Source of the DNA: a virus | DNA length: 33,681 nt | Virus record (IMG/VR): IMGVR_UViG_3300023210_000117 | Location: 1 to 33,681 of that record | Strand: one strand, 5' to 3' | Shown here: in pieces, positions 1-19,610 of the stretch | Numbering within the stretch: the first letter of the stretch is position 1 | How the letters are laid out: the number at the start of each line of letters is the position of its first letter | The notes under the pieces: generated by a model | The model's database searches: none | Told to the model about the DNA's origin: nothing | Seen by the model: the letters and a program-made list of their open reading frames with translations, nothing else | Position numbers and translations under genes: made by a program

Positions 1-584
1 TGACTACTCGTAACGTAGGGGTAATCCCCCCAATCGATGTCTAGTCCGAAACCCTGTGCTCCTTCACAAAGAACAGTGGCGTCGGGATTGTGGAAATAAA
101 ACTCCTCGTACATATCAATGAGATAATCATGAAGCAACGGATAGTCTTCGGCACGAGAACCCAGTCGAGAATATTTGGCTCCATAGCAGGGCCCGTTGCC
201 TGTTTTGGTAGTTCCCAGTTTTGATTCTTTACTATCTCTCACAACGTGCTCGTCCCTAATGGTGTGGGCGTTCTTTGCAATATAAATTTTGTTGGCTACG
301 TCTATGCCGGCCTCCTTTAACATTTTAATTTCAGCGAAGAACCTGTGTATATTAACAACGCAGCCGGGGCCTATGATACTTTTCACACCAAAGAACACGC
401 CGGCTGGAATGTGGTGTGTGACAAACTTTTCACCGTTATGATAAATAGTATGACCAGCATTGCATCCACCGTTATAACGGACACAATGTGTATAATCCCC
501 ATCTTTTAAAAGGTGATGAGTAACCTTTCCTTTCCCTTCATCGCCGTATTGAACACCAACGATAACATCAACGATTAAAGACAC
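1..584 (-). CDS. purA: Adenylosuccinate synthetase (PurA/PurZ family), N-terminal part; runs off the window
   Basis: About 194 codons are visible; the 3' end lies beyond position 1. Start is GTG at 584-582, preceded by an AGGGGG ribosome-binding site that overlaps the dnaE stop codon (8-nt gap). The P-loop-like motif GDEGKGK is near residue 13, followed by YNGGCNAGHT, a GTTKTGNGP segment and EGAQGFGLDIDWGDYPYVTSS at the end of the visible part. PurA joins IMP and aspartate with GTP to give adenylosuccinate, the first committed step to AMP. The catalytic Asp and His of E. coli PurA (GDEGKGK and NAGHT) are both present; classical phage PurZ (2-aminoadenylosuccinate synthetase) has lost that Asp. 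The short spacing between GTT and EGAQ resembles archaeal and phage members more than E. coli PurA. Its place directly behind a DNA polymerase gene suggests purine nucleotide supply for replication. The family is certain; the substrate (IMP or dGMP) is not. Confidence 0.93.
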   Translation of the reverse strand, partial: MSLIVDVIVGVQYGDEGKGKVTHHLLKDGDYTHCVRYNGGCNAGHTIYHNGEKFVTHHIPAGVFFGVKSIIGPGCVVNIHRFFAEIKMLKEAGIDVANKIYIAKNAHTIRDEHVVRDSKESKLGTTKTGNGPCYGAKYSRLGSRAEDYPLLHDYLIDMYEEFYFHNPDATVLCEGAQGFGLDIDWGDYPYVTSS

Positions 585-592
585 TTGTCCCC

Positions 593-3500
593 CTATGCTA
601 AGATTCTAAAATTTCTTCGGAGACTTCGAGTTGAAAATCCCCACTTCTCATTGTACTCTAATTTTGCCATATATGGTTTATTAACATGAATTCTATCGTG
701 CTCCTTGACTCCCCAGCAACGAATCTTCGTTAAAGTGTTTGTGTCATCAATAACCTCAATGATCCAATATGGCTTCCCGTTCTTCGTTTTCTTTGGGACA
801 ACCTTTCTCGGAATGAACCAGACACACTCGCACAATTCCGGATCATAATTTGCAATCGCTGGAATAGAAGCTCCACTTAATTGATTATAAATCTCTGGCT
901 TCATAACCTTATTAAATGGGAATACTCCAGTTAGTTCAACAAGATATCCAATCTTTTCTTCATCGGAGAAGTCTCCCTCTGGAGAATAACGCTCAATATT
1001 ATCAATGAGATTCTGTTCCTTTCTCGGCCGATCAACACATATCGCAGACCAAAAGTGTTTACCTCCAGTGAAGCGCTGGTCCATAAGACAGTTCAGTGTT
1101 CCAGAACGGCACAAGACATCTAGACTCTTCTTATTGAGTTTCGAGTAAGTTATTCCCTCATTAAACAGGAACTCCTCAATATTATTAAATGGCCTGTTAG
1201 CAGTAATCTGATCAATTGCTGCGTCACCTAGTCCCTTGATTGAAGATAGCGGCTGGATCAACTTCGTTCCATCCTCTGAAATCTCCCAAACTCTTCCCGA
1301 AGAATTGATATTGAGCCCCTCGATCTCCAGACCAAAAGACTTTGCGATGCCAATTGCTTTTTCTTTTCTCGTCTCAGGTTCTTTGTCCAAAAATGCAGCT
1401 AACCACTCAACCTGATAATAGTTAAGTAACCAAGCGCACTGGTAAGATAGTATACAATAAGATACGGCATGAGACTTGTTAAATCCATAACCCGAGAAAT
1501 ACTCGAAGGTTTCCCAGAATCTTTCGCCGGTTGTTTTCTTCAGGCCCTTTTCAACGCAGCCTTGAATAAACTTTGATTTTAAAGCTTTCTTAACCTTTGC
1601 CTCTTTGCCTGTTCCTTTCTTGGTTAAGACCTTGCGCAAAGCATTCCCCTCATCGAGAGAGAGATCCTTTCCAAGCTTATGAGCCAAGAGAGCAATTTGC
1701 TCTTGGAAAATAAGGAAGCCTGATGTCTCCTCGGTGACAGACCTATGCTCTTCATTAATAAACTTAAGCAGGTGGGGGTTTTCTCTAGCCCGAACATAAT
1801 CATTGTGGACATTAGCGCCCAATGGACCGGGCCGATAAATAGAAGTAACAGCCGCGAGGTCAATCAAGCTTGTCGGCTTAACTTGCTGGCAGAATCTTTG
1901 GGCCCCAGTCTCAGTGAACTGAAAGATGCCAGCCCACTTCCCTGTTTGAAAGATGTTTTTGTAAATATTCTGATCATCAAGGTCAATGATATCTGGGTGT
2001 AAGTTCCTATTATAATAGTCTTTTACATCTTCATAAGTCGGGTTCTCAATATTATGATGTCTCCGCAGAATATGACGAATTGAGCCGTCGATCATCTTTA
2101 AGGTTGAGAGACCGAGAACATCGAATTTAATGAAGCCCATGGTTTCAAGGTGTCTAACATTTTGTCCTTCGCTCCATGGAGTTTGACGAACACCACCAGA
2201 ATTGATAAGGGGCATTCTATTATTCAAGTTCTCGGCGATGACAACGCCGCCAGCGTGGCGAGAGCAGGATCGTACCTGACCATATAAGGTTTCAATGTGA
2301 GTCTTAATGTGGGGATAGCGGGCCAAGAAAACCTTGAGAGTATCGCTGAACTCCATCACCTCATCGAAGGTTGGAGCATAGATGCCAGTCTTGATACCGT
2401 GCTTCAATTTGGCCGGACCGATGGACTCCATCATCATTACGGAGGTTACATCATTAACTTCTTTAAATTCAATTCCATAAAACTTTGAAATGTCCTTGAT
2501 AAGACTCTTAAGTTGCAACGTGTTCCAGTTTGAAATGGGCGCGACTTTATCCTCTCCCCACTCTTTAATCAGGATCTCTTTAAGCTCCATACTGTCAGCA
2601 ACATCATAATCGATGTCGGGATAGTCAGTCGCGTCGGCGCGAAGGAACCGCGCAAACTGCAAGTCCCATTTGATGGGATCAACCTGTGTAATGTTCAACG
2701 CATAGGCAACCAATGAGCCAGCCGCCGAACCTCGACCTGGGCCAGTTAGCATAACCTCGTTTGCCTTTTCACTGATCTGATTCATCGTCAAGAAATACTT
2801 TGAGAAACCTCGGTCTGAAATAACCTCAAGCTCCATACGCAATCGCTCGGTGTACTCCTCGTTCGTATGAAAACCAAGCCGACGCAAGCCTTCGATGCAA
2901 AACTTCTCCAACGCCGAGTCTGCTGTCTCTCCAGCGGGAATAACAAAGTCAGGAAGCCGAACAGTATTATCCGGTAGAAAGTCAGCAATTTTTTCATGGG
3001 CAATCGTATGGGTTCTTACAATGGATTCCATAACCAAGTCATCATCATACTCAACACCACACGATTCCGAGTATTTCTTATATGCCTCCCACATTTGGTT
3101 CCCGTTGCGAGGGTATAACTCATAGCCGATCTCTTCAACTCCCGCTGGAAGATCTGGACTCTCGTATCCTGGCCTTGGTTTCCCAAGCCAGCCAAGCTTT
3201 CTATAAAGTTCACGGTCTTTCCAAGCATCCGGATTGGGATAGTGCGAGTCAGAAGTTGAAATAAGTTCAATTCCAAACTCGTCGTGCATTTTAATGATGT
3301 ATTTATTAAGTTCGTGTTGCTCTGGAATGTTGTTCCATTGAAGCTCTCCGTACCATCGATCTCCGAAGATACTCATCATCTCTTTTGTGGTCTCACGCAT
3401 AGCCTCTAGGACCGCCAGTTCCCCATTCTCACGGTTCTCCCAGTAGTTTCCAGCATACACGCCTCCAAGACAGGCAGAGGCCGCTACAACGCCCTGAGAG

Positions 3501-4012
3501 TACTTTTTTAATAGCTTGTAGTCAACTCTGGGATAACGGTAGTAATTCTCTGGATTGAATGATTCAGAGATCAGCGAGAAGAGATTGTTCAATCCTTCCT
3601 GATCTTGAGCCAATAGGATGAGGTGGCGGCGACGATTAAGGATATTCCTAACCTGCTTCTTTGATGCCTCTTCATCTTCAACTGTTGTTGCAGTTACGTC
3701 TTTATTTAGCGTCTTGCGCTTCTTCTTATCTTCTTTGGCTGCTTCATAGTCATCACGCCAATCATCGAGACTGGGTAAGAAGTATGCTTCAATGCCGAAT
3801 ATGGGCTTAAAATCTCTTCCCTCTTCCTTCATCTTCTTTGCGTGAAGCACCTGATATGGCAAGCCGTTCATGTTCCCATGGTCAGTCAATGCCAAGGCAT
3901 CCATGCCGTTTTCATAGGCAAAGTCCATGTGTTCCTGTGGATACCCAAGGGCATCAAAAATGCTTCCAGCTACGGAATGCGCGTGTAATCCAACAAATGG
4001 GATCTTTTTCAT
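593..4012 (-). CDS. dnaE: DNA polymerase III alpha subunit (DnaE-type, family C)
   Basis: An 1139-residue bacterial-type replicative polymerase, full length for the family. The N-terminal PHP domain has HAHS (H10, H12), DHG (44-46) and a SDSH segment at 254-257. The polymerase core shows GPGRGSAAGSLVAYAL (424-439), PDIDYD with the two metal-binding Asp D466 and D468, and the third Asp D631 in KFDVLGL. YRPGPLG and the GYGFNKSHAVSYCILSY finger segment follow. A helix-hairpin-helix-like IKGLGDAAI and a C-terminal OB-fold-like region (about 1060-1139) complete it. ATG at 4012 has a GGAG site 8-9 nt upstream. It lies last but one in a minus-strand run, just upstream of purA. Phages more often carry family A or B polymerases, so a complete PolC-family enzyme is unusual, all the more since a family A polymerase is also present at 18.4 kb. 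I see no separate DnaQ exonuclease or sliding-clamp gene here. Confidence 0.97.
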   Translation of the reverse strand: MKKIPFVGLHAHSVAGSIFDALGYPQEHMDFAYENGMDALALTDHGNMNGLPYQVLHAKKMKEEGRDFKPIFGIEAYFLPSLDDWRDDYEAAKEDKKKRKTLNKDVTATTVEDEEASKKQVRNILNRRRHLILLAQDQEGLNNLFSLISESFNPENYYRYPRVDYKLLKKYSQGVVAASACLGGVYAGNYWENRENGELAVLEAMRETTKEMMSIFGDRWYGELQWNNIPEQHELNKYIIKMHDEFGIELISTSDSHYPNPDAWKDRELYRKLGWLGKPRPGYESPDLPAGVEEIGYELYPRNGNQMWEAYKKYSESCGVEYDDDLVMESIVRTHTIAHEKIADFLPDNTVRLPDFVIPAGETADSALEKFCIEGLRRLGFHTNEEYTERLRMELEVISDRGFSKYFLTMNQISEKANEVMLTGPGRGSAAGSLVAYALNITQVDPIKWDLQFARFLRADATDYPDIDYDVADSMELKEILIKEWGEDKVAPISNWNTLQLKSLIKDISKFYGIEFKEVNDVTSVMMMESIGPAKLKHGIKTGIYAPTFDEVMEFSDTLKVFLARYPHIKTHIETLYGQVRSCSRHAGGVVIAENLNNRMPLINSGGVRQTPWSEGQNVRHLETMGFIKFDVLGLSTLKMIDGSIRHILRRHHNIENPTYEDVKDYYNRNLHPDIIDLDDQNIYKNIFQTGKWAGIFQFTETGAQRFCQQVKPTSLIDLAAVTSIYRPGPLGANVHNDYVRARENPHLLKFINEEHRSVTEETSGFLIFQEQIALLAHKLGKDLSLDEGNALRKVLTKKGTGKEAKVKKALKSKFIQGCVEKGLKKTTGERFWETFEYFSGYGFNKSHAVSYCILSYQCAWLLNYYQVEWLAAFLDKEPETRKEKAIGIAKSFGLEIEGLNINSSGRVWEISEDGTKLIQPLSSIKGLGDAAIDQITANRPFNNIEEFLFNEGITYSKLNKKSLDVLCRSGTLNCLMDQRFTGGKHFWSAICVDRPRKEQNLIDNIERYSPEGDFSDEEKIGYLVELTGVFPFNKVMKPEIYNQLSGASIPAIANYDPELCECVWFIPRKVVPKKTKNGKPYWIIEVIDDTNTLTKIRCWGVKEHDRIHVNKPYMAKLEYNEKWGFSTRSLRRNFRILA

Positions 4013-4033
4013 TGTGTGTTCTCCAACCTTTCT

Positions 4034-4255
4034 TTATTTATTAACTTCTTGATTTGCTCTACTTAATATTTTAAATTTCCAAAAACCCTGAACATAGATT
4101 ATAATAGTTCCGCAAGTAAAAACCTCGTACATCTTTCCATATGGTGCGCCAGGAACATCCATAACTTTTAAAATTATACCCTGTATGATGTCTCCAAACC
4201 TTGTTCTTTCGGAGGAGATTGATACGAAATCTCCCTCTTGCGGCCTTTCAATCAC
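4034..4255 (-). CDS. Small beta-rich hypothetical protein (73 aa)
   Basis: The start is GTG at 4255, which overlaps the TGA of the preceding DUF2061 gene (GTGA) and has GGAG six bases upstream. The frame stays open to 4276, but the earlier GTG codons have poor spacing to any ribosome-binding site. The protein is rich in beta-forming residues (GDIIQGIILKV, KMYEVFTCGTIIIYVQGFW), like the small SH3/KOW-like barrel proteins common in phages. No catalytic motif is visible and I cannot assign a function. Its TAA end lies 21 nt upstream of dnaE, so it is probably cotranscribed with it. Confidence 0.75.
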   Translation of the reverse strand: MIERPQEGDFVSISSERTRFGDIIQGIILKVMDVPGAPYGKMYEVFTCGTIIIYVQGFWKFKILSRANQEVNK

Positions 4256-4440
4256 TTCGCTCTCCACTTCTCCCACACCCTTTCAAATACATAGTGTCCG
4301 ATAGTAAACAGTGTGTGCAACAATATGGTGATCCATGTAGCTTCCTGTGTGTCTCCCGTAATGGCATACAGGACGATCAGCGTCATCAAAATAGATATTA
4401 TACGCCATGCCACAACTTTTAAAATTAGCTCATTTTTCAT
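4252..4440 (-). CDS. DUF2061-like small membrane protein (62 aa)
   Basis: The short sequence has the DUF2061 pattern: a basic VAWRI start, a TG turn between two hydrophobic stretches (about residues 10-27 and 34-52), and the ending HYVFERVWEKW, matching the family's HERxW signature. Two transmembrane helices are likely, so the product should sit in the host inner membrane. The function of DUF2061 is unknown. ATG at 4440 overlaps the TGA of the 98-aa gene upstream (ATGA) with AAGGAG eight bases before it. It is the only clear small membrane protein in the window outside the tape measure, and lies in the accessory cluster next to the restriction-modification genes. Confidence 0.8.
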   Translation of the reverse strand: MKNELILKVVAWRIISILMTLIVLYAITGDTQEATWITILLHTLFTIGHYVFERVWEKWRAK

Positions 4441-4733
4441 TCTTCGCTCTCCTTCAACTCACTATACCAACAAGGCTCCATATGTGCAACCTCTGGATTA
4501 TGTGGGTTGGGTATAAACTGGGCATCAAGTGATCCAGATCCGTCATAGTAACAGTAAAAAGAGCCAGTGGAAATCATATAATAGATTCCTTCTTCCTTTT
4601 CTGCGAAAGATTCTCTATCGGAGATCTCACCTCGGTATTCTACCTGCTTCCCTTTATAGGTCTTGGGACGGTTATCTTTCATTATTCGCTCCTTTTGAAA
4701 TTTCTCGATGTATGCCCCATCAAGCTTACTCAT
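4437..4733 (-). CDS. Hypothetical protein (98 aa) with two usable starts
   Basis: Acidic, aromatic-rich small protein with an YYMISTGSFYCYYDGSGSLD segment; no family recognised. The first ATG (4733) overlaps the end of the methyltransferase gene and is preceded by AGGAG with 7-nt spacing. A second in-frame ATG at codon 18 (4682) has an equally good AAGGAG with about 7-nt spacing and would give an 81-aa product beginning MKDNRPKTYKG. Either or both may be used. It is cotranscribed with the methyltransferase and the DUF2061 gene, but nothing in the sequence links it functionally to either. Confidence 0.72.
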   Translation of the reverse strand: MSKLDGAYIEKFQKERIMKDNRPKTYKGKQVEYRGEISDRESFAEKEEGIYYMISTGSFYCYYDGSGSLDAQFIPNPHNPEVAHMEPCWYSELKESEE

Positions 4734-5505
4734 TATTAACTCCTATTTCTGATTCTAATTCGTCTTCTAGTTTCTGTATGTTTAAACAAGCCAATTCGAA
4801 GTATTCCCTGTTGGATTCTATTCCAATAAATCGTCTCGAATTCTTTATGGCAACAATCGCGGTGGTACCAGAACCTATATAGGGGTCCAATATTACATCA
4901 CCGGCTTCTGTCGTGGGAAAAATACAATTTTCAACTAATTTTTCTGGAAAAGTGCACACATGACCTTTATTTCTGCTGGGTGGGATTTTCCAAATATTTG
5001 TTAACTTGTGCTCTTTGTTGTCCCACTTCTTGGGCTTTTTAATCTGATAGATCCTCTCCTCTTGGATATGATACCTGTTGGATGGATTACCAATACCGCA
5101 TCGATCCCAGATGATTTCGCACCAAATTGGGAACTTATCTAGCCAGTGCATCGGATGATGCAAGTTATTATTGGTGCGATAAATATTGCGATTGTGCCAA
5201 GCAAATCTAATCTTATGGTTATAAAAAATAGAACTACGACTTACCCTCATCAACTCAAAAATAACAGCTTGCTGCTGGCCCTGATAGGACCATTCTGGCA
5301 GGTCATCATCATACCATTTTTCATACTTTTCGGTCATACTTTTCGATGTTTTTGAGTTTTTATAATTAGAATATCTTTTGCAAAGGTTATACGGGGGAGA
5401 GGTGACGACCACTTCTACAGATCCTTTTTCTAGTGTGGGTAGAACCTCCAGACAATTTCCTAAGATCATAATTCCATTTTTAAATTCCCTTGTTTCAAAA
5501 TCCAT
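4726..5505 (-). CDS. Beta-class DNA methyltransferase, probably N4-cytosine (modification half of a Type II RM pair)
   Basis: A 259-residue SAM-dependent DNA methyltransferase. Catalytic motif IV, TSPPYN, is at 35-40 and comes before the SAM-binding motif I, DPYIGSGTT, at 207-215; this order defines the beta class. An S-P-P-Y tetrad, rather than D/N-P-P-Y, is typical of N4-cytosine enzymes, the type that partners MvaI and BcnI. ATG at 5505 overlaps the stop of the upstream gene (TAATG), which encodes an MvaI/BcnI-like nuclease, so the two are translationally coupled with restriction first and modification second. Its role would be to protect phage DNA from the co-encoded nuclease and possibly from host enzymes with the same specificity. 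The recognition site cannot be read from sequence; a CCNGG-type site is a guess from the family. All core motifs are intact. Confidence 0.93.
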   Translation of the reverse strand: MDFETREFKNGIMILGNCLEVLPTLEKGSVEVVVTSPPYNLCKRYSNYKNSKTSKSMTEKYEKWYDDDLPEWSYQGQQQAVIFELMRVSRSSIFYNHKIRFAWHNRNIYRTNNNLHHPMHWLDKFPIWCEIIWDRCGIGNPSNRYHIQEERIYQIKKPKKWDNKEHKLTNIWKIPPSRNKGHVCTFPEKLVENCIFPTTEAGDVILDPYIGSGTTAIVAIKNSRRFIGIESNREYFELACLNIQKLEDELESEIGVNNE

Positions 5506-6191
5506 TATTGAACTCCGCTGGTTTTTTCGTAAAGCTTTTCGACTTTTCTTGGATTAATTCTAAAGGCTGTCCCCCTGTTCTTTTTTCCCCCTTTGGAGAT
5601 CCTAATTTCAACTACTAAATCCCCAGATTTAACAAGTCGAACAAAATTATCACAAGACATTCCGCTATATTTATGAAACTTTTTAATTTTGCCTTTCTCG
5701 TGTTCAAGAGAAAATACTCTATCCAACTTCCTTCCAGCATGCTCAAGAAGGGCATCTAATTCCCAGTAACCACATTCACGATCATTGTGCATGATAATGA
5801 GGCGATTTTCTAAAATTTGTAAATAAAGACCCAAGTTGTTCGGACCACTTTTGATTGAAGTGTTTAACCTTATTCCGCACTTAGAAAATCTCTTGAAAAA
5901 GTCACGGCTGCCTGAGAACCATTGCTTCATCCATATGGGCTCCTTGGAGAACAAGGTCATTTTAGACTTTCCGTTTGTTGTTTTGAGTTCAATATTTCCA
6001 TCTTTTAATACTATATCGGCGCCGGCTCGATTATTTTCTTCAACTCCCAAAGCTTTTTCCAAACTGCGGCCGAAGGCGCCGTCGTCGCCCAGACGATCAT
6101 CCTGAGAGATACCCAATGTACTTCCGACCAAATTATTGCAAGCATCGCTGACGCCTCCCAATGTATCTTGGTTTGCATTGCTATTCTTCAT
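5505..6191 (-). CDS. MvaI/BcnI-family Type II restriction endonuclease
   Basis: The region GRSLEKALGVEENN (41-54), followed by ADIVLKDGNIELKTT and MTLFSKEP (78-85), is the N-terminal signature of the MvaI/BcnI family: GxxLE..LGv..N, a PD-(D/E)xK core with ELK (E68, K70; acidic partner D59 or D64), then TLFxKEP. A GTAFRI segment (207-212) matches the family's C-terminal motif, with Arg where I recall many members having His. At 228 aa it is near the usual length (MvaI and BcnI are about 240 aa and act as monomers). The best start is ATG 6191, six bases after AGGAG; ATG 6194 and TTG 6197 are alternatives. It overlaps the upstream gene by 11 nt and the methyltransferase by 1 nt. A strong promoter lies about 150 nt upstream inside the preceding gene. 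It may attack competing phages or act in host DNA breakdown. Confidence 0.87.
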   Translation of the reverse strand: MKNSNANQDTLGGVSDACNNLVGSTLGISQDDRLGDDGAFGRSLEKALGVEENNRAGADIVLKDGNIELKTTNGKSKMTLFSKEPIWMKQWFSGSRDFFKRFSKCGIRLNTSIKSGPNNLGLYLQILENRLIIMHNDRECGYWELDALLEHAGRKLDRVFSLEHEKGKIKKFHKYSGMSCDNFVRLVKSGDLVVEIRISKGGKKNRGTAFRINPRKVEKLYEKTSGVQ

Positions 6192-7065
6192 CATCAACTC
6201 CTATTTCATTCCATTCGTGATACTTCATAAATATTGGGTGAGGTCTTTCAATTAGCTTTCGCTCTTCTGATCCCAAGTAGTCGCAGTATCCATCCCAAGA
6301 ATCTATGTTGTAATACCATGGGACTTCAACTTTGCTTTCTATATCTATTATAACAGGTTCAAAGATTTTGTCAAGTAAAAAATGTCGTGCAGAATATCTT
6401 TCTTCTTTTGGCAGTTTCTCCCTGGGATATATTCCGTCCTCCATAACCTCAGAATTATACTGTCCGGTGCCCTCGCGGAGCTTTCTACGACAAGCAACAA
6501 AGTCATCGCGGCCAAATGTAAATCCAAGATACTCATTGTTCTTAACGGTCTTCCCGTCGTGGCTCAACATAAATGGTCTCTCACTTGAAATATCTTTTCT
6601 ATGTGGTCTCAGAATCTCCGGATCATAAACCCCATAAGGGAATGCCACATAATATCTTTTGGGAACGATCCACTTGCTCAGTTTGATCGAGACTCTGAAA
6701 GCAGTGGTTGCTCCCCAAATGATGCTCCAAGATAAACAGTCTCGTTTGCCCACGTCCTTTGCATGAACCGGAACGTAAAAGATTGGGATTTGTTTTCTCG
6801 TCTGTGATGGATAGGGATCGAGCCCTCTTCCAATCCAAACAGGATCTTGGACCCACTCTCCAAGTCGATGTCTTATCAACGGCTTCATATCATCGTTACA
6901 GACAATCCAGATGGTTTCACATCCAGCCCAAGTACACTCATACACCGCTCGCTCAACCGCGAGGTAGTTCGGTGCTATCGGCATCATCGCGTCGTGCCAG
7001 TCCATTTTAAAGTCTAATGGCTGTCCTGCCACCGGTATGATGCCGGCCAGATGAAAGCTGCTCAA
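6181..7065 (-). CDS. GT-A / sugar-nucleotidyltransferase-like protein (294 aa)
   Basis: The N terminus (LAGIIPVAG, then MMPIAPNYLAVERAVYECTWAGCETIWIVCND) follows the pattern of nucleotide-sugar pyrophosphorylases and GT-A folds: a hydrophobic strand, a glycine turn, a P-x-x-x-x-x-x-v-e helix, then 'aG...i.iv'. The rest is tryptophan- and tyrosine-rich and unfamiliar. The classic GxGTR loop is replaced by AGQPLDFKM, so NTP binding is uncertain. The start is TTG at 7065 with GAGGA just upstream; the next ATG would remove the first beta strand, so TTG is preferred. Adjacent to the restriction-modification pair, it could make or transfer a sugar for DNA or virion decoration, but this is inference. 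Confidence 0.68.
   Translation of the reverse strand: MSSFHLAGIIPVAGQPLDFKMDWHDAMMPIAPNYLAVERAVYECTWAGCETIWIVCNDDMKPLIRHRLGEWVQDPVWIGRGLDPYPSQTRKQIPIFYVPVHAKDVGKRDCLSWSIIWGATTAFRVSIKLSKWIVPKRYYVAFPYGVYDPEILRPHRKDISSERPFMLSHDGKTVKNNEYLGFTFGRDDFVACRRKLREGTGQYNSEVMEDGIYPREKLPKEERYSARHFLLDKIFEPVIIDIESKVEVPWYYNIDSWDGYCDYLGSEERKLIERPHPIFMKYHEWNEIGVDDEE
6347..6374 (-). promoter_or_regulatory. Extended -10 sigma70-type promoter for the restriction-modification genes
   Basis: Read on the minus strand, TTGACA (6374-6369) and TATAAT (6352-6347) are separated by 16 bases, with TGT directly before the -10 (extended -10, TGn). Both hexamers are exact. Predicted start is near 6340, about 150 nt before the restriction endonuclease ATG and inside the upstream coding region. 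This would let nuclease and methyltransferase be expressed separately from the long upstream operon. Confidence 0.7.
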
Positions 7066-7122
7066 TTAATCCTCATCGGGTTTTCCGCTGAATAAATTTG
7101 TCTTTTTAGGCGGCGCCGGCAT
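7066..7122 (-). CDS. Possible 18-codon leader peptide before the TTG-initiated gene
   Basis: A short frame starts at ATG 7122 with GAGG four to five bases upstream and encodes MPAPPKKTNLFSGKPDED. Its TAA lies directly before the TTG start of the nucleotidyltransferase-like gene, so it could feed ribosomes onto that weak start codon. It also fills the gap between two genes. It is too short to judge by content and may be chance. Confidence 0.3.
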   Translation of the reverse strand: MPAPPKKTNLFSGKPDED

Positions 7123-7765
7123 GCTGCCTCAATTTTTGGAGATCGTATATCCCAGGTTTTGGTGTATATTTTGGCAAACCTGCCACGCCATGTAATCTCT
7201 TGTATAATCCCAAAAGAGCGTTTCGGTGCTGTTCGAGTGCTCCGATTGATTTTGAGAGGCGGTCGTGAGCTTTCCCGGTGCGTCCCAGTTCTTTTGGAAA
7301 TCGTTTGCCATAATTTTCTATTTGTGCTCGCGCGATTATTAACTTAGTTAAAAGTGGTTCCAGTCGCTCTTCGTAAAATCTTATTACTCTTTCTAGCATC
7401 TCGGATAATGTCTCGTTTTCATAGGATCCGGCGCGCGAGCCTCTTATATAGAATGTGTCGTCGTCCTGCCACCAGCCAGTAGGGCCATACTTGCCAAGTA
7501 TATACTTGACACAGTCACGATCGGGGAAACCGGCCTGTTCGGCGGTACCGCCAGCCTCTCCATGGTGACTTAATACGCAGATAAGACCGTTTGCGTATTC
7601 AAAGATCTCTTCGGCGTCTTCAAAGTCTTCCCCGCTTACCTGAGCCTCCTTCTTATTCCTCTTCTCTCTTGGGGGTCCGATGTCTTGTTTACCAAAAGGA
7701 TTCCAGGCTTCATCCACGGTTTCTTCTTTAATATATTCTCGCCAGTTTTCCATAAGGAGTTTCAT
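7106..7765 (-). CDS. Hypothetical protein with N-terminal MKLLMENWREYIKEE tag (219 aa)
   Basis: No catalytic family is recognised. ATG at 7765 overlaps the TGA of the preceding gene (ATGA); an upstream in-frame GTG at 7777 is less likely. The first 15 residues form an amphipathic segment, K-L-x-x-E-x-W-R-x-Y-I-K, that resembles both ends of the neighbouring 532-aa protein. In several phage groups such leaders precede unrelated proteins, and I infer a targeting tag. The middle contains an acidic stretch and HHGEAGG; the C-terminal half is basic and helical with coiled-coil character. It may be an internal virion protein. Confidence is good that the gene is real and low for its role. Confidence 0.8.
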   Translation of the reverse strand: MKLLMENWREYIKEETVDEAWNPFGKQDIGPPREKRNKKEAQVSGEDFEDAEEIFEYANGLICVLSHHGEAGGTAEQAGFPDRDCVKYILGKYGPTGWWQDDDTFYIRGSRAGSYENETLSEMLERVIRFYEERLEPLLTKLIIARAQIENYGKRFPKELGRTGKAHDRLSKSIGALEQHRNALLGLYKRLHGVAGLPKYTPKPGIYDLQKLRQHAGAA

Positions 7766-9360
7766 CTCTTCGTCCACCCCTTCCAGCTTTCACATAACTT
7801 TCCGTAAGAAGCATTTTCGGCGAGTGCGGCGCCGGATTCGTCGGAACGAATAATTCCCTTCTCTTCCATCATTTGCAACGAAAGCTGGAGAACCTCATCA
7901 TGTTTCCCATCATAATCTGAAATTCTTATTAAGAAATCCCTAAATCCATCGGAATGGTTCAATTCATCAATTTTTGGGTAAAAGTCAAAGCGAACGACTG
8001 GATCCTGCCTATAATCATTGCTATCTATTGTATCTGGATCAATCCCTCTATCTTCTCCGGCTGCTTTGAAGATTTCTTCAATTTCATTTTGCCAGTCTCC
8101 AAAATCGTATGCAACCCCGTCGTCGTCTAATGCATATTTGAGATCGCCGGGAAGTGGCCAACCCATTGCGGCGGAATAGTGCATATTCTCTGGATCCTCA
8201 CTGTCGAGCTTTAAATCTACACTGACAGTATGCAAATTATCTTCATATTCAGCCAAGATATTATTGTAAATTGCTAGGTTGACCTCATTTGGATCTGCTG
8301 GGTTTTCGTAATTATTCACAAATGCGGAAGTAATCAGTGTCTCATAGGCTTGTGCAAATTCTTTATGAATCGCATTTGCAAGATCTACTGGGTCGTATGT
8401 TTTTAATTCCTCTTTCGATATTGGGCCGCTGAAGGAGTCCTTATTTTCGAGTATGGCTTCCGATACTTTTTTAATTTCGGGTGTTATTTTTTCTGATGGC
8501 TGACTAGAGAATGTTTTATATTCTTCATAAAATCTTTCATAATCAGAAACATGGCCGGCCAAAATGTTTTTGGTAATGTGACGAAAAAGATCCCTGTATC
8601 CGATTTCCTTATTGTCAAAATTCCATATTTCGGAAGGTTGTGTGGCTTCTTGCTCCGAATTGTAAACTATTACAATGTGCTGCCCTAGATCAGGGCCATC
8701 AAGATTTCTCAGCAAAATCATATAGAAAGCCTTACCTTCTTTGGTATATTGGTGAAAATAATCACTGCCCTGTCTGGAAATGCACCATGGTGCGCCTCGT
8801 CCGTAGTAGCACGATGCCTTTTGTGTGGTTGGCCTCACCATAAAGAAATCATCATTTTGAAAAATGATACTTGATCCGGCTCTTGCAGCTTCGCGTGACT
8901 TTTTTCTCTTTTGTTTATCGGTGAATCCCAGATCTCTATTAACTTTTTTCAAATCTTCTAAGGTTTTATAAGAGCTAAGATCCGTGTTTTTTATTCTCTG
9001 CCTGTTTTCGTGAAACTTTTTTATTTCTCTCATTATCTCTGCTGCCGCGTTATGGGCGATGTGGTGGCGGCGACGAAACATAGCGGGTGTCCCAAGAGTG
9101 TCACCATATATCGGGCGATCCTGTGGTGCGACAGTTGCTGCGGCTTCTTTAGCCATAACAACTAATCGTGTGTAAAGTTGGTTGGCCATCCACATTAAAT
9201 ATTTATTTCTGCCGGAAGGATCGTTATTGGAAAGAGTCGTTATTACATCCGTGTTAATGTCTGGATATTTCTTTCTAACATCCTTGAGGATTGACTCTAC
9301 AAGAAGTTGCGTTTTATCTAATGTAGACCAATTGCGGAAGTCTTCGAATAAGGATTTCAT
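7762..9360 (-). CDS. Large phage protein with WCIS motif and terminal tag peptides (532 aa)
   Basis: Residues about 180-220 contain KASCYYGRGAPWCISRQGSD and then YFHQYTKEGKAFYMIL. This is the 'G.G..WC.S......Y...G..Y.I' pattern found in many uncharacterised phage proteins and PcfJ-like mobile-element proteins. Function is unknown; W192, C193 and S195 are the striking conserved-looking positions. Residues 95-160 are strongly basic (FRRRHHIAH, KQKRKKSREAAR) and could bind nucleic acid. The C-terminal half is acidic. The N terminus (MKSLFEDFRNW) and the C terminus (KLCESWKGWTKR) both resemble the leader of the next gene. The ATG at 9360 has no clear ribosome-binding site and sits 2 nt after the stop of the upstream gene, so it probably depends on coupled translation. 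Confidence 0.85.
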   Translation of the reverse strand: MKSLFEDFRNWSTLDKTQLLVESILKDVRKKYPDINTDVITTLSNNDPSGRNKYLMWMANQLYTRLVVMAKEAAATVAPQDRPIYGDTLGTPAMFRRRHHIAHNAAAEIMREIKKFHENRQRIKNTDLSSYKTLEDLKKVNRDLGFTDKQKRKKSREAARAGSSIIFQNDDFFMVRPTTQKASCYYGRGAPWCISRQGSDYFHQYTKEGKAFYMILLRNLDGPDLGQHIVIVYNSEQEATQPSEIWNFDNKEIGYRDLFRHITKNILAGHVSDYERFYEEYKTFSSQPSEKITPEIKKVSEAILENKDSFSGPISKEELKTYDPVDLANAIHKEFAQAYETLITSAFVNNYENPADPNEVNLAIYNNILAEYEDNLHTVSVDLKLDSEDPENMHYSAAMGWPLPGDLKYALDDDGVAYDFGDWQNEIEEIFKAAGEDRGIDPDTIDSNDYRQDPVVRFDFYPKIDELNHSDGFRDFLIRISDYDGKHDEVLQLSLQMMEEKGIIRSDESGAALAENASYGKLCESWKGWTKR

Positions 9361-10389: not shown

Positions 10390-10659
10390 TTATTCCTTTA
10401 GTACGCCGACGACGTGGTTTTCTAATACTAAATAGACTTTACCTTCGCCAAAATCAACCTCTTCGATCATGTGCGCCAAAACGACTACTTGTTGTCCTGG
10501 TGAAATGGGTGGCCTCACATCTGACGCTATTAATAAAATCTTTACTCTCTCATATTTTTCCTCAGTTTTAAAACTATCAGGAAGAGCTATAAAGCTTTCT
10601 TCTTTTTCGGCCGATATCCTCTCTATAAGTAGATATCGATTACAGGGTTCAAATTTCAT
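10390..10659 (-). CDS. GroES/gp31-like co-chaperonin (89 aa)
   Basis: The layout matches the Cpn10 fold: NRYLLIERI near the start (family P..DRVLV), an ALPDSF segment (I.LPD..), the strand VKILLIAS, SPGQQVVVLAHM (v..GD.Vl.....), and the C-terminal ENHVVGVL (family EDDILAVL). At 89 aa it is slightly shorter than GroES. Residues 17-30 would correspond to the mobile loop that contacts GroEL. Phage co-chaperonins such as T4 gp31 replace host GroES to fold the large capsid protein, and the same job is inferred here. ATG at 10659 overlaps the reductase stop (ATGA) with GGAGG upstream. Confidence 0.8.
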   Translation of the reverse strand: MKFEPCNRYLLIERISAEKEESFIALPDSFKTEEKYERVKILLIASDVRPPISPGQQVVVLAHMIEEVDFGEGKVYLVLENHVVGVLKE

Positions 10660-12908
10660 GTTTCCTCCAGATGCATTATATTTTTCGATTCTCTAAGCGC
10701 TTCTAAATATTCAATTGGTAATTCGCATGCGCCTCCAGCACACGCCGAGTCTGCTTCAAAATGTACATTATTTTCTTCTTCACACATTGTTGTCCAGTCA
10801 ACGTCTCCATATTCTTGAGAAAGTTTTTCCCATCGCTTTAAGTTATAAACGTCTTTTAAACAATAAGTCATCTTTCTAACATTTCCCTCAAAATGGCTAT
10901 GCGCGAACTTGATGGCAGCAGTGGCCCAGTCTCGCTTGAGGGGGGTAACCTGATCAAGCGGTTCTCCAATTCCCAACAAGCAATCGCTGGCGGCCCAAAG
11001 ATCGTGGTCAAAGGCTGCAATACCTTTTTCGATGATCCCAGAAGCAAAAAAAGATCCGGCGCCATATTCACGAAGAATATCATTAGGGTAAGGTACAGCA
11101 CAAAAAGGAGCTTGGGGATAGTCTTTATCTCCAGAACATGGAATCAGGGAAATGCCTGCGAAGTACTTTCTATTTTTATAAATGTAGTCTGCAACTTCAT
11201 CCCACTCGTCTTCTTTGACATGAATTGTGTTGGAAACATTATGACTTAGCCATGGCTGTGTGCAAAGATCTTTATTAATTCCATAACGAACCCAATTCTG
11301 TTGTGTTAACTTAACACTTTCTAGCAACTTTGATGCATCAATTTGATTCTTTGTCTTTGCACCTACTGGAACTTCACACAAAAAGGTAATGACTTCTGTA
11401 ACTCCATTGGGATCCCAGACAGATTTCTCAACTGCTCTAGGATTAAATTTCTTAAAATGTTGGACCGGATTTTCTTGGACATTCGCTTGCACACGACGAA
11501 AATACCTTTTGGCGTGGTGCGGATGGATTCCAGAAGCAGTGCCAAGAATGCAACTAGTTGATCCGGCGGGTTTGACGCAGGTTGTTCTAGCAGCCTGATT
11601 GATTCCGATAATGGAAGCTACTTCTTTATTTGTATCTTTAACAATCTTGGCGCCATTTCGCTGAACTTGCGGATCAAATAAGAGTTCTGCGTTATCCATC
11701 ATGCCGGTAATAGAGACACCAAGCAACGCTTCGCGCCTTGTTATATTCTCGGATGTCTCCCCCAAATAAGGAAAGCTCGTGTAAGAAGATTGAAGAGTAC
11801 CAATGATTGCCGCTGCGCGGCAAGCTTTATAGAAATTCTCTGGAGTGTTCGCCTTCTTCCCGTTAATCTCGGTCAGGTTACAAAACTGCCATCCAGGTTT
11901 ACCCGTCTCTACATCAACTGGATATAAGCCAATTTCAACACAGGGGTTAAATCCCATCTCTTTACTCTCGGCCCAAACAAAGGCCGGCTCTCCAAATTCT
12001 CGCACCCACTCCATCAATTGATCAAACTCTGCTTTTGTAGTTTGATCGCGGATAAGAAGGGCGCTATTATTTGATCTTCCTCGTTGGGGGTTTTCGACAA
12101 ACCAGTTACCCGTTTTTGCTCGGGCCATTTCTTCATCTTCGGGTGAAAACAGCGCAATAGTTGCAGATCGTCGGACGCCGCCTGAAATTACTGCATCGGC
12201 AGCGTGCATAATAATATCGTAAACATCTATGGGGCGCATACGGATATAGTTGCTATCTCCAAGGCGCTCGTCAAACACTTGTCGGATCTTTTCAATAGAC
12301 CTCTTCAGTCCACCTGGGCCTGGGGCCTTCGCTCCAGAACTCAAAGGTGCACCCGCTGGTCGCACTTCCGAATAATCAAAAACAACTCTGTGTCCGATAT
12401 ATTCATCAAACTCTTGATTTCCGCCAAAGTAGCTTGTCACCAGCACACCAATCGCATCTGCCCAGCCCTCGATAGTATCTGGAACGACGAAAATTTGAGA
12501 TCTAGTTGTACCATCTGGACGACTGATAGGAGGAAGGGAGGCAACGTGGTGCTTTTGAACAGAAAAGCCAATACCACAACCACATAAAAGAAGATACATT
12601 AGTTCTTGAAAAACTCTGGTACGGTTGATGTGGCCAAAGCCGCAATTGTATACGCGGGCGTTGTGCTTGAAGATTGGATCTCCTCCGAATTGAAGAATTC
12701 TTTGTGAGCCCAGAACCTCTTTCTTATAAACAGCAGCTTCGGCTTCATCGATGAAAGACATGATTTCGTCATTGTCCTCGAACCTTTCTCGGTGCATATC
12801 AAAAACTCGGGTAACTTGTTCTTTCCAAGTCTCTCGTCTTTTTAATTCTGGCAAATACTTTGCATATTTTGCTATTCTCGTATATTCTTGTAGTGCGTTT
12901 ATCGACAT
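10656..12908 (-). CDS. nrdJ: Class II (adenosylcobalamin-dependent) ribonucleoside-triphosphate reductase
   Basis: A 750-residue single-chain reductase of the RTPR type. Visible landmarks: C89 in RVYNCGFGHI (active-site thiol), LLLCGCGIGFSVQ (107-118), GGVRRSA (243-249), and FNPCVEIGL with C323 and E325, the cysteine and glutamate of the radical site. FCNLTEIN (342-349) follows, and a C-terminal CAGGAC thiol pair would be the shuttle to external reductant. The enzyme makes dNTPs from NTPs using B12 rather than iron or oxygen, so the phage can make DNA precursors with or without oxygen if the host supplies cobalamin. No R2 subunit gene is needed or seen. It follows the helicase by 3 nt and overlaps the co-chaperonin. 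No intein or intron disrupts it. Confidence 0.96.
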   Translation of the reverse strand: MSINALQEYTRIAKYAKYLPELKRRETWKEQVTRVFDMHRERFEDNDEIMSFIDEAEAAVYKKEVLGSQRILQFGGDPIFKHNARVYNCGFGHINRTRVFQELMYLLLCGCGIGFSVQKHHVASLPPISRPDGTTRSQIFVVPDTIEGWADAIGVLVTSYFGGNQEFDEYIGHRVVFDYSEVRPAGAPLSSGAKAPGPGGLKRSIEKIRQVFDERLGDSNYIRMRPIDVYDIIMHAADAVISGGVRRSATIALFSPEDEEMARAKTGNWFVENPQRGRSNNSALLIRDQTTKAEFDQLMEWVREFGEPAFVWAESKEMGFNPCVEIGLYPVDVETGKPGWQFCNLTEINGKKANTPENFYKACRAAAIIGTLQSSYTSFPYLGETSENITRREALLGVSITGMMDNAELLFDPQVQRNGAKIVKDTNKEVASIIGINQAARTTCVKPAGSTSCILGTASGIHPHHAKRYFRRVQANVQENPVQHFKKFNPRAVEKSVWDPNGVTEVITFLCEVPVGAKTKNQIDASKLLESVKLTQQNWVRYGINKDLCTQPWLSHNVSNTIHVKEDEWDEVADYIYKNRKYFAGISLIPCSGDKDYPQAPFCAVPYPNDILREYGAGSFFASGIIEKGIAAFDHDLWAASDCLLGIGEPLDQVTPLKRDWATAAIKFAHSHFEGNVRKMTYCLKDVYNLKRWEKLSQEYGDVDWTTMCEEENNVHFEADSACAGGACELPIEYLEALRESKNIMHLEET

Positions 12909-18428: not shown

Positions 18429-19610
18429 TTATACCCCCAGTTTCTCTAGTTGGCCAAAATTTTGACCTACTCTGACATTCACCATAAATTTACCAAGGGC
18501 CGTATTAGAAAAAATATCTATGATTTCTGGCAATTTTTCTTTGTCTTCTTTAGAAAGGTCAAGTACAATAGAATCATGGATCGGGAAAGCAACATATGAT
18601 TTACATCCTTTTAGGTAATTAGATACTTTAATCATTTGTCTCAGAACATTTTCGGCACATGTTGATTGAATAATGTAATTCAATGCGGTTCTCTCCTCTG
18701 ATGGGATCACCTTGTCCCAAAAGGTTTTCACTTGGCCCTGTGTGAAGTACTTTTGTACCACCGAATCGCGGTCATAAGCTTTTGATGAAAGATAATCTTG
18801 GCTTTCTGGATTATATAACCACGCGAAAATTCTTTTCTTAGCCTCGTCTCTCGTCCCCAAGCCTCGGAATACATTTTGAATATTCCATTCGTGGATATCC
18901 TCTTTGGGCTGCGGTTTGCCCTGAAGGGATATAAGTGTCCTTAGTTCTGCTGCATTAAAATCAAGCTCTACAAAATAATCATTCCGAGGTTCAATAACAG
19001 ATCGGAGATCTTTCCTCAAGGTAAGGATGGGAAAACTTTTTGGTTCTGTTGTCAATCGACCGGTCTTTGTTCCGTGAATATTGAACTTGCACGAATGTTC
19101 AATCTGATTTAAGTTTTGTGAAAACTTTCTATGATCTGTTTTAAACATGGAAAGGTTCTGGGGATTTAAGTTTAGGCTTCTATATTTTATGTCTTCGATT
19201 ATCTCAGTCAAAGAAACAAGATAATCATAGTTCTTTGGCTTTTCATAATTCTCAAAAACGTGCTCACAAATATAATTTTTGACTTGACAGAACTCCTCAA
19301 GGAATTTTTGAGGTACTAAATCAAAAAAACAGTTCTCATCGAGCGATACACGCGCCGTCATAAAAGATTTGATGAAAGCCCTGAGTTTATCACTGGATCT
19401 CTTGTAGCGGTCCCTCAGAGCCTCTGGGCACACCATATCGAGGGTTCTTCCTCCACAATAGAGTTTTGCGTACTCAATCTCCTTTCCCTTCAGAAATCCC
19501 GAATATGACCATGTATGAGTCAGGTCATCTGGTAATTCTTGGTTGAAAAGAAGCTCATCATAGTAAATTCCGACGCAATCTTTTTTGTCGTCAAGTGTTT
19601 GAAAAAGCAT
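18429..19610 (-). CDS. Family A DNA polymerase, palm/fingers only, no exonuclease domain (393 aa)
   Basis: Pol I-type motifs are in order. The primer-grip region is GTKTGRLTTEPKSFP (180-194). Motif A is VELDFNAAELR with metal-binding D217. The O-helix motif B has R254, K258, F262 and Y266 (family RxxxKxxxFxxxY). ALNYIIQSTCAE follows, then motif C PIHDSI with D346. In motif C the usual HDE is HDS, so the second acidic residue is missing. Only about 175 residues precede the core, too few for a 3'-5' exonuclease, and no DxE exonuclease motif is seen; Pol I enzymes are usually 600-900 aa. It could serve in gap filling, primer replacement together with the nearby FEN nuclease, or translesion synthesis, while DnaE at 0.6-4.0 kb replicates the genome. 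ATG 19610 follows GAGGG by only 3 nt. Confidence 0.9.
   Translation of the reverse strand: MLFQTLDDKKDCVGIYYDELLFNQELPDDLTHTWSYSGFLKGKEIEYAKLYCGGRTLDMVCPEALRDRYKRSSDKLRAFIKSFMTARVSLDENCFFDLVPQKFLEEFCQVKNYICEHVFENYEKPKNYDYLVSLTEIIEDIKYRSLNLNPQNLSMFKTDHRKFSQNLNQIEHSCKFNIHGTKTGRLTTEPKSFPILTLRKDLRSVIEPRNDYFVELDFNAAELRTLISLQGKPQPKEDIHEWNIQNVFRGLGTRDEAKKRIFAWLYNPESQDYLSSKAYDRDSVVQKYFTQGQVKTFWDKVIPSEERTALNYIIQSTCAENVLRQMIKVSNYLKGCKSYVAFPIHDSIVLDLSKEDKEKLPEIIDIFSNTALGKFMVNVRVGQNFGQLEKLGV

Follow-up and report, generated by a model that had tools for sequence, protein, structure and literature searches.

The window analyzed here, from a marine phage, is the whole of the IMG/VR virus record IMGVR_UViG_3300023210_000117, a linear fragment of 33,681 bases that lacks end repeats, and its left edge encodes the first part of an adenylosuccinate synthetase (PurA). 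Our results indicate that this is probably a compact, GTP-dependent PurA, that many of its relatives stand in a gene run of purA, a dUTPase gene and a probable GMP reductase (GMPR) gene, and that the run would shift purines from guanine to adenine for DNA synthesis. An earlier reading made from the letters of the window (the sequence-only reading) had offered two routes for the enzyme, AMP supply or synthesis of 2-aminoadenine. The former is favored by the catalytic Asp13 (E. coli numbering), the GTP motif of the relatives, the phylogeny and the partner gene, whereas the latter found no support.

The purA frame is a 194-codon open reading frame (ORF) at 3-584 on the minus strand, which has a GTG start, runs off position 1 and encodes the first 194 residues of a PurA-family protein, its 3' part lying past the record edge. 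The features at this end of the window are:

3..584, minus strand: purA, first 194 codons of about 333 (ORF and PF00709; full length in record L003)
525..545, minus strand: GDEGKGK loop with the catalytic Asp, E. coli Asp13 (sequence and alignment)
447..461, minus strand: NAGHT with the catalytic His, E. coli His41 (sequence and alignment)
589..594, minus strand: AGGGGG, presumably a Shine-Dalgarno-like element, overlapping the dnaE stop codon (sequence)

Both motifs are intact in the visible half of the protein, as first noticed in the sequence-only reading. PF00709 matched in two stretches (E 5.1e-44, model positions 1-147, and E 2.2e-9, positions 207-235), and the roughly 60 model positions missing from the centre between them bear out the short central region that had been described. 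Since the window is the whole record, it holds no sequence left of position 1. Record L003 is 99.7% identical to window 1-7769, extends 2.78 kb past the left edge and completes a PurA of 333 aa.

Active-site residues were counted in 72 virus sequences, the unique ones left from 95 by a crude substring filter, and in 38 bacterial sequences, mostly from Patescibacteria. At the Asp13 site, Asp was found in all 71 covered virus sequences and all 37 covered bacterial ones (one gap in each set), whereas 9/9 PurZ/PurZ0 references, classed from their annotation, have Ser. The earlier claim that the catalytic Asp is kept, unlike in PurZ, thus extends from the window to its relatives. His41 is present in the window and in 72/72 virus sequences, and wherever covered the virus set also keeps Asn38, Lys16, Thr129, Thr300, Arg303, Arg305, Lys331 and Asp333. 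Asp333, presumably the guanine-recognition residue that sets GTP specificity, and Thr301/Arg303/Arg305, which we take to bind aspartate, occur in 71/71 covered relatives; they lie past the window edge but are present in L003. Site 333 is Asn or Gln in the PurZ references and Asp in the PurZ0 references. The residue after the catalytic Asp is more variable, being Glu in the window, Cys in 27/71 and Thr in 1/71 covered virus sequences, and Cys, Ser or Thr in 37/37 covered bacterial sequences. According to the available part of PMC12884076, Asp13 is 99% conserved in bacterial PurA, and its replacement by Ser, or by Gly in archaeal relatives, is the criterion for PurZ/PurZ0.

Phylogeny and structure point in the same direction. 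The tree comprised 51 rows, including the window, 22 of the 72 virus sequences, 13 of the 38 bacterial ones and one archaeal fragment, and the program gave a long-branch warning; three bacterial reference rows come from phage-labelled records that we judged to be likely bacterial contamination. The window grouped with proteins of uncultivated viruses and Patescibacteria (100/100), and this clade, whose sister is huge-phage PurA (98/90), formed one set with bacterial PurA (100/99). PurZ and PurZ0 are parted from the window clade and bacterial PurA by a 100/98 branch, so the phylogeny that had been proposed as a check came out against the 2-aminoadenine route. A model of the L003 PurA (mean pLDDT 80.2) matched PurA chains with Z of about 30-35, compared with 28.6 for PurZ0 and 22-26 for PurZ. 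The NCBIfam PurA equivalog model, which describes the long form with 430 positions, has a cut-off of 402 bits that was missed both by the full-length protein of the relative L004 (280.7 bits) and by the window fragment (174.6 bits); this weakens the family label but would not weaken the case for PurA-like working. The NCBIfam PurZ model NF038379 (cut-off 300) was missed as well, with 116.3 bits for the window and 131.8 for L004. The protein is likely an ordinary-type PurA that uses IMP and GTP, and not an enzyme of Z-base synthesis.

Compared with E. coli PurA, the window protein shares Asp13 and His41, its relatives share Asp333 and Thr300-Thr301-Gly-Arg303, and both lie on the same side of the tree. 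The E. coli enzyme is longer (432 aa against 333), the phage form being without parts of the centre and the C-terminus, and its Gln34 is Asn in the phage form. PurA of Patescibacteria (Kaiserbacteria and others) is 52-63% identical over the matched part, with similar length and motifs and membership of the same 100/100 clade, but has Cys, Ser or Thr after Asp13 where the window has Glu. The PurA of huge phage LR756501, the best-ranked INPHARED match (38.6-38.7% identical) and sister of the clade, differs by its 400-aa frame and longer C-terminal part. The sequence-only reading had also seen an archaeal or phage-type likeness. This stands for length, as Pyrococcus horikoshii PurA (2D7U, 5K7X) is likewise a short form (339-340 aa) with the catalytic Asp, but not for descent: the Pyrococcus enzyme has Val300 and Met331 in place of the relatives' Thr and Lys, which are of the bacterial kind, and falls outside the bacterial tree set. 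An archaeal origin of this PurA is therefore unsupported by residues 300 and 331 or by the tree, in which archaea are represented by one fragment.

Relatives of the window PurA are encoded by 560 of 590 pattern-matched IMG/VR stretches. The best 80 of these 560 were kept, together with 80 of at least 561 stretches for the partner, a homologue of IMP dehydrogenase (IMPDH) and GMPR. Removal of five duplicate loci left 83 distinct purA records, near-copies included (54 clusters at 90% identity). In 54 of the 83, the homologue lies downstream of purA on the same strand, 0.6-8.1 kb away, and a dUTPase gene stands between the two in 47 of these 54. Where at least 5.5 kb of downstream sequence exists, the homologue is found within 5.5 kb in 33/53 records, or 21/35 clusters at 90% identity; in one record, L037, it is upstream of purA. 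After purA, the longer left end of L003 has frames of 127, 103, 110, 167 and 179 aa, and the record breaks off within a dUTPase gene, the product of which agrees with the L004 dUTPase at 41 of its first 42 residues. In L004, the homologue (346 aa) begins about 3.8 kb after purA. Pfam gave below-cut-off matches for two of the five L003 frames (helix-turn-helix among others for the 110-aa frame, methyltransferase for the 179-aa frame) and no match for the 127-, 103- and 167-aa frames.

Homologues were counted as 113 unique of 137 sequences, with frames shorter than 300 aa dropped. Cys186, Thr188 and Glu289, a trait common to GMPR and IMPDH, are present in 113/113. The Arg418-Tyr419 dyad of IMPDH is absent at the aligned columns in 113/113, and the flap has 20 residues in 108/113, compared with 30 in E. 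coli GuaB and 23 in GuaC. According to the available text of PMC2525682, GMPRs are recognised by a missing dyad and a truncated flap. The partner shares the Cys-Thr-Glu set and the missing dyad with GMPR GuaC, even though GuaC is far off in the tree.

Several observations weigh against a GMPR and favor a partner that would be an IMPDH, making XMP, so that both purine branches would be fed from host IMP. The best NCBIfam score is for IMPDH in 5/5 homologues tested (270-302 bits, cut-off 481.5), while the best GMPR model reaches 205-235 bits against the five, likewise below its cut-offs. The fold cannot separate IMPDH from GMPR, the best-ranked chains are IMPDHs, and our model of the homologue has low confidence in the flap (pLDDT below 50 at 265-285). 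In no tree does the virus clade group with GMPRs, and E. coli GuaC forms a very long branch. The letters RY occur inside the short flap in 3/113 homologues. Legionella 3R2G, the best PDB sequence match, is labelled IMPDH and is also without the dyad, and the T. brucei GMPR combines a missing dyad with a 30-residue flap; flap length is therefore no clean test. Additionally, Patescibacteria with this PurA have an IMPDH-type partner. The homologue was found in 17 of 22 genomes searched (of the 38, the same 22 being searched for PurB), and the six examined all keep the dyad, unlike the virus homologues. We nevertheless consider an IMPDH unlikely, as the two traits that distinguish GMPR, absence of the dyad and the short flap, run through the whole or nearly the whole virus set, and the homologue most likely acts as a GMPR, judging from its sequence. 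The idea that the virus homologue descends from its Patescibacteria counterpart found no support, as the two fall in separate clades (21 virus and 6 Patescibacteria rows).

In one record the homologue gene is split by an intein (L061, 5518-7795), with pieces of 102 and 40 residues placed before SICSTR, the catalytic Cys loop, and a free-standing NUMOD3-type endonuclease gene lies between the pieces. In L060, which is 99.8% identical around the site, the gene is whole. The intein resembles the IMPDH-1 split intein, reported with 106 and 42 residues in the available part of PMC11766414, in its sizes, Cys1 and Ser+1. The IMPDH-1 intein may derive from a marine phage homologue of this kind.

With a PurA-type enzyme and a GMPR-like partner in many relatives, these phages probably convert guanine to adenine nucleotides. 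The homologue would reduce GMP to IMP, PurA would join IMP to aspartate at the expense of GTP to give adenylosuccinate, and host PurB would complete the path to AMP. In combination with the phage ribonucleotide reductase, presumably the consumer of the adenylate made by PurA, such a route could move the purine pool from G to A and feed AMP/dATP into DNA synthesis. The window ends before the expected site of the reductase gene, which its own virus may carry. PurB was found in none of the 30 virus records searched whole, a set made up of the window plus 29 of the 83 records, picked mostly for length; this is a further point against the proposal, and the route therefore needs the host. In Patescibacteria, a PurB match was found in 20/22 genomes, 13 of them above cut-off. 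The arrangement points to two phage-encoded steps that lead from guanine towards adenine nucleotides. Among the open-licence papers retrieved, including the available parts of PMC7029224 and PMC9611531, we found no description of a phage gene run joining purA and a GMPR gene. A GMPR gene is reported for one marine pelagimyophage group in PMC7029224, the main text of which makes no mention of adenylosuccinate or purA.

Alternatively, purA might be a lone auxiliary gene whose product draws on host IMP, with the downstream homologue a loosely linked neighbor. The homologue is found in 18 of the 30 records searched whole but was not found in the other 12, which also counts against a shared route; of these 12, the window and L003 end before the expected site, and six others exceed 80 kb, though they are fragments. 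Among the 18 long records with both genes, two have the homologue 8.2 kb downstream and two have it elsewhere, as a loose linkage would predict. The other 14 have it no more than 5.5 kb downstream on the same strand, where random placement would give 0.6, and the dUTPase gene is interposed in most of the runs. The correspondingly small p-value is unreliable because the records are related. Given this order, an isolated purA seems just as doubtful as an IMPDH partner. Less probable still is a switch working partly on deoxynucleotides, in which dGMP from degraded host DNA would pass through dIMP to dAMP, giving the A half of the A:T precursors, the use of GTP would starve guanine-nucleotide signalling in the host, and the dUTPase (with ThyX in some relatives) would make the T half.

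A Z-genome route, in which a PurZ/PurZ0-like enzyme would condense dGMP with aspartate and 2-aminoadenine would enter the phage DNA, is highly improbable, and we rejected it on Asp13, the tree and the missing partner genes, for which controls were partial. In its favor are the common superfamily, the short central region and the PHROGs database, whose family for the window protein bears the label 2-aminooxy adenylosuccinate synthetase. PurZ0 phages also carry a dUTPase gene near purZ0, as found near this purA, and this too speaks against our interpretation. The dUTPase near this purA, however, shares 25-35% identity with three from PurZ0 phages, while those three share 45-54% with one another; a fourth row, the annotated dUTPase of phage Frizzle, aligned poorly to all (14-25%) and was excluded from these ranges. 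Asp13 in all covered virus sequences contrasts with Ser in 147/147 phage PurZ/PurZ0 proteins (available part of PMC12884076), and the tree and the structural model favor PurA. PurZ0 (Gordonia phage Archimedes, 7VF6, and relatives) is alike in fold and Asp333 but has Ser for Asp13, Ala15, Val300 and Lys303 in three references, Archimedes not among them. PurZ of S-2L and phiVC8-like phages shares the fold but has Ser for Asp13, Phe331 and Asn or Gln at 333.

The Z-pathway families PF04447, PF12917 and PF18909 (covering DatZ, MazZ/DUF550 and DUF5664) were each found in 0 of the 30 records, which are fragments, in a search that did not include MazZ-2, DmtZ and DpoZ. As controls, PF04447 was positive in 2/6 Z-phage records; among those missed is BUCT555, although a DUF550 protein is annotated in its record. 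PF18909 was positive in 2/4. PF12917 was positive in 5/14 named genomes, and a direct scan with the latter matches three DatZ-type Z-phage proteins. Absence of the Z families from the relatives is thus likely and not proved, since the controls are partial and all records are fragments. The possibility raised earlier that DatZ or MazZ homologues lie just left of position 1 was not borne out, as neither datZ nor mazZ was seen in the 2.78 kb that L003 adds there. The case illustrates clearly how a short phage PurA can carry a Z-type PHROGs label and still should not be read as evidence of a Z genome. With relatives on 560 IMG/VR stretches, Z-genome surveys that rely on this label alone could be inflated.

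Outside IMG/VR, 38 relatives came from a genome collection. Their record titles all point to metagenome-assembled or uncultured genomes, 31 naming Patescibacteria lineages and 7 only 'bacterium'; one relative lies on an 859-kb chromosome. This search used short patterns that more distant relatives would escape. Among 50,697 phage records there was no match reaching 60%, the best-ranked being that of LR756501. Viral PurA homologues as such are already known, 481 being counted in the available part of PMC12884076. Other host-like genes stand near purA in relatives, including ThyX (L070, 12047-12772), a Clp protease (L024, 14834-15436) and a GroEL-like frame recognised by eye (L079, 2717-4288).

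Attempts to extend L003 rightwards, towards the partner gene, gave no longer record. In a set of 80 loci encoding relatives of the last complete gene of L003, purA occurs only in L003's own record, and two (L238, L239) have the partner homologue. None of eight loci compared with L003 as DNA (seven of the 80, and L013) was near-identical, and an exact 37-base search matched only L003's own record. Window 7770-9347 is missing from L003 as a clean gap, with flanks 99.7% and 99.1% identical to the window, and the 532-aa ORF at 7762-9360 is thereby absent.

No Rfam family was matched in a scan of the window, and no tRNA was found in it. The other features of the window are:

593..4012, minus strand: DnaE-type DNA polymerase III alpha, 1139 aa, directly upstream of purA
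6181..7065, minus strand: 294-aa protein, no function assigned
10656..12908, minus strand: ribonucleotide reductase, B12-dependent type by weak Pfam matches
18429..19610, minus strand: short family A polymerase, 393 aa (PF00476, E 1.8e-15)

The position of purA behind a phage DNA polymerase, and the presence of a second polymerase of family A, had both been described correctly in the sequence-only reading. Immediately ahead of purA, 32 of 54 representative relatives, many of them short, encode a DnaE homologue, and a family with the length and start of the 294-aa protein is upstream of purA in 26/54. The weak matches of the ribonucleotide reductase are PF21995 (E 9.8e-6, just under its cut-off) and PF02867 (E 1.3e-5). 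The same phage combines the short family A polymerase with the DnaE-type polymerase. At 4726-6197 on the minus strand, an ORF for an MvaI/BcnI-type restriction endonuclease (PF15515, E 2.3e-17) lies beside one for an N6/N4 DNA methyltransferase, and the two are possibly a restriction-modification pair in a phage.
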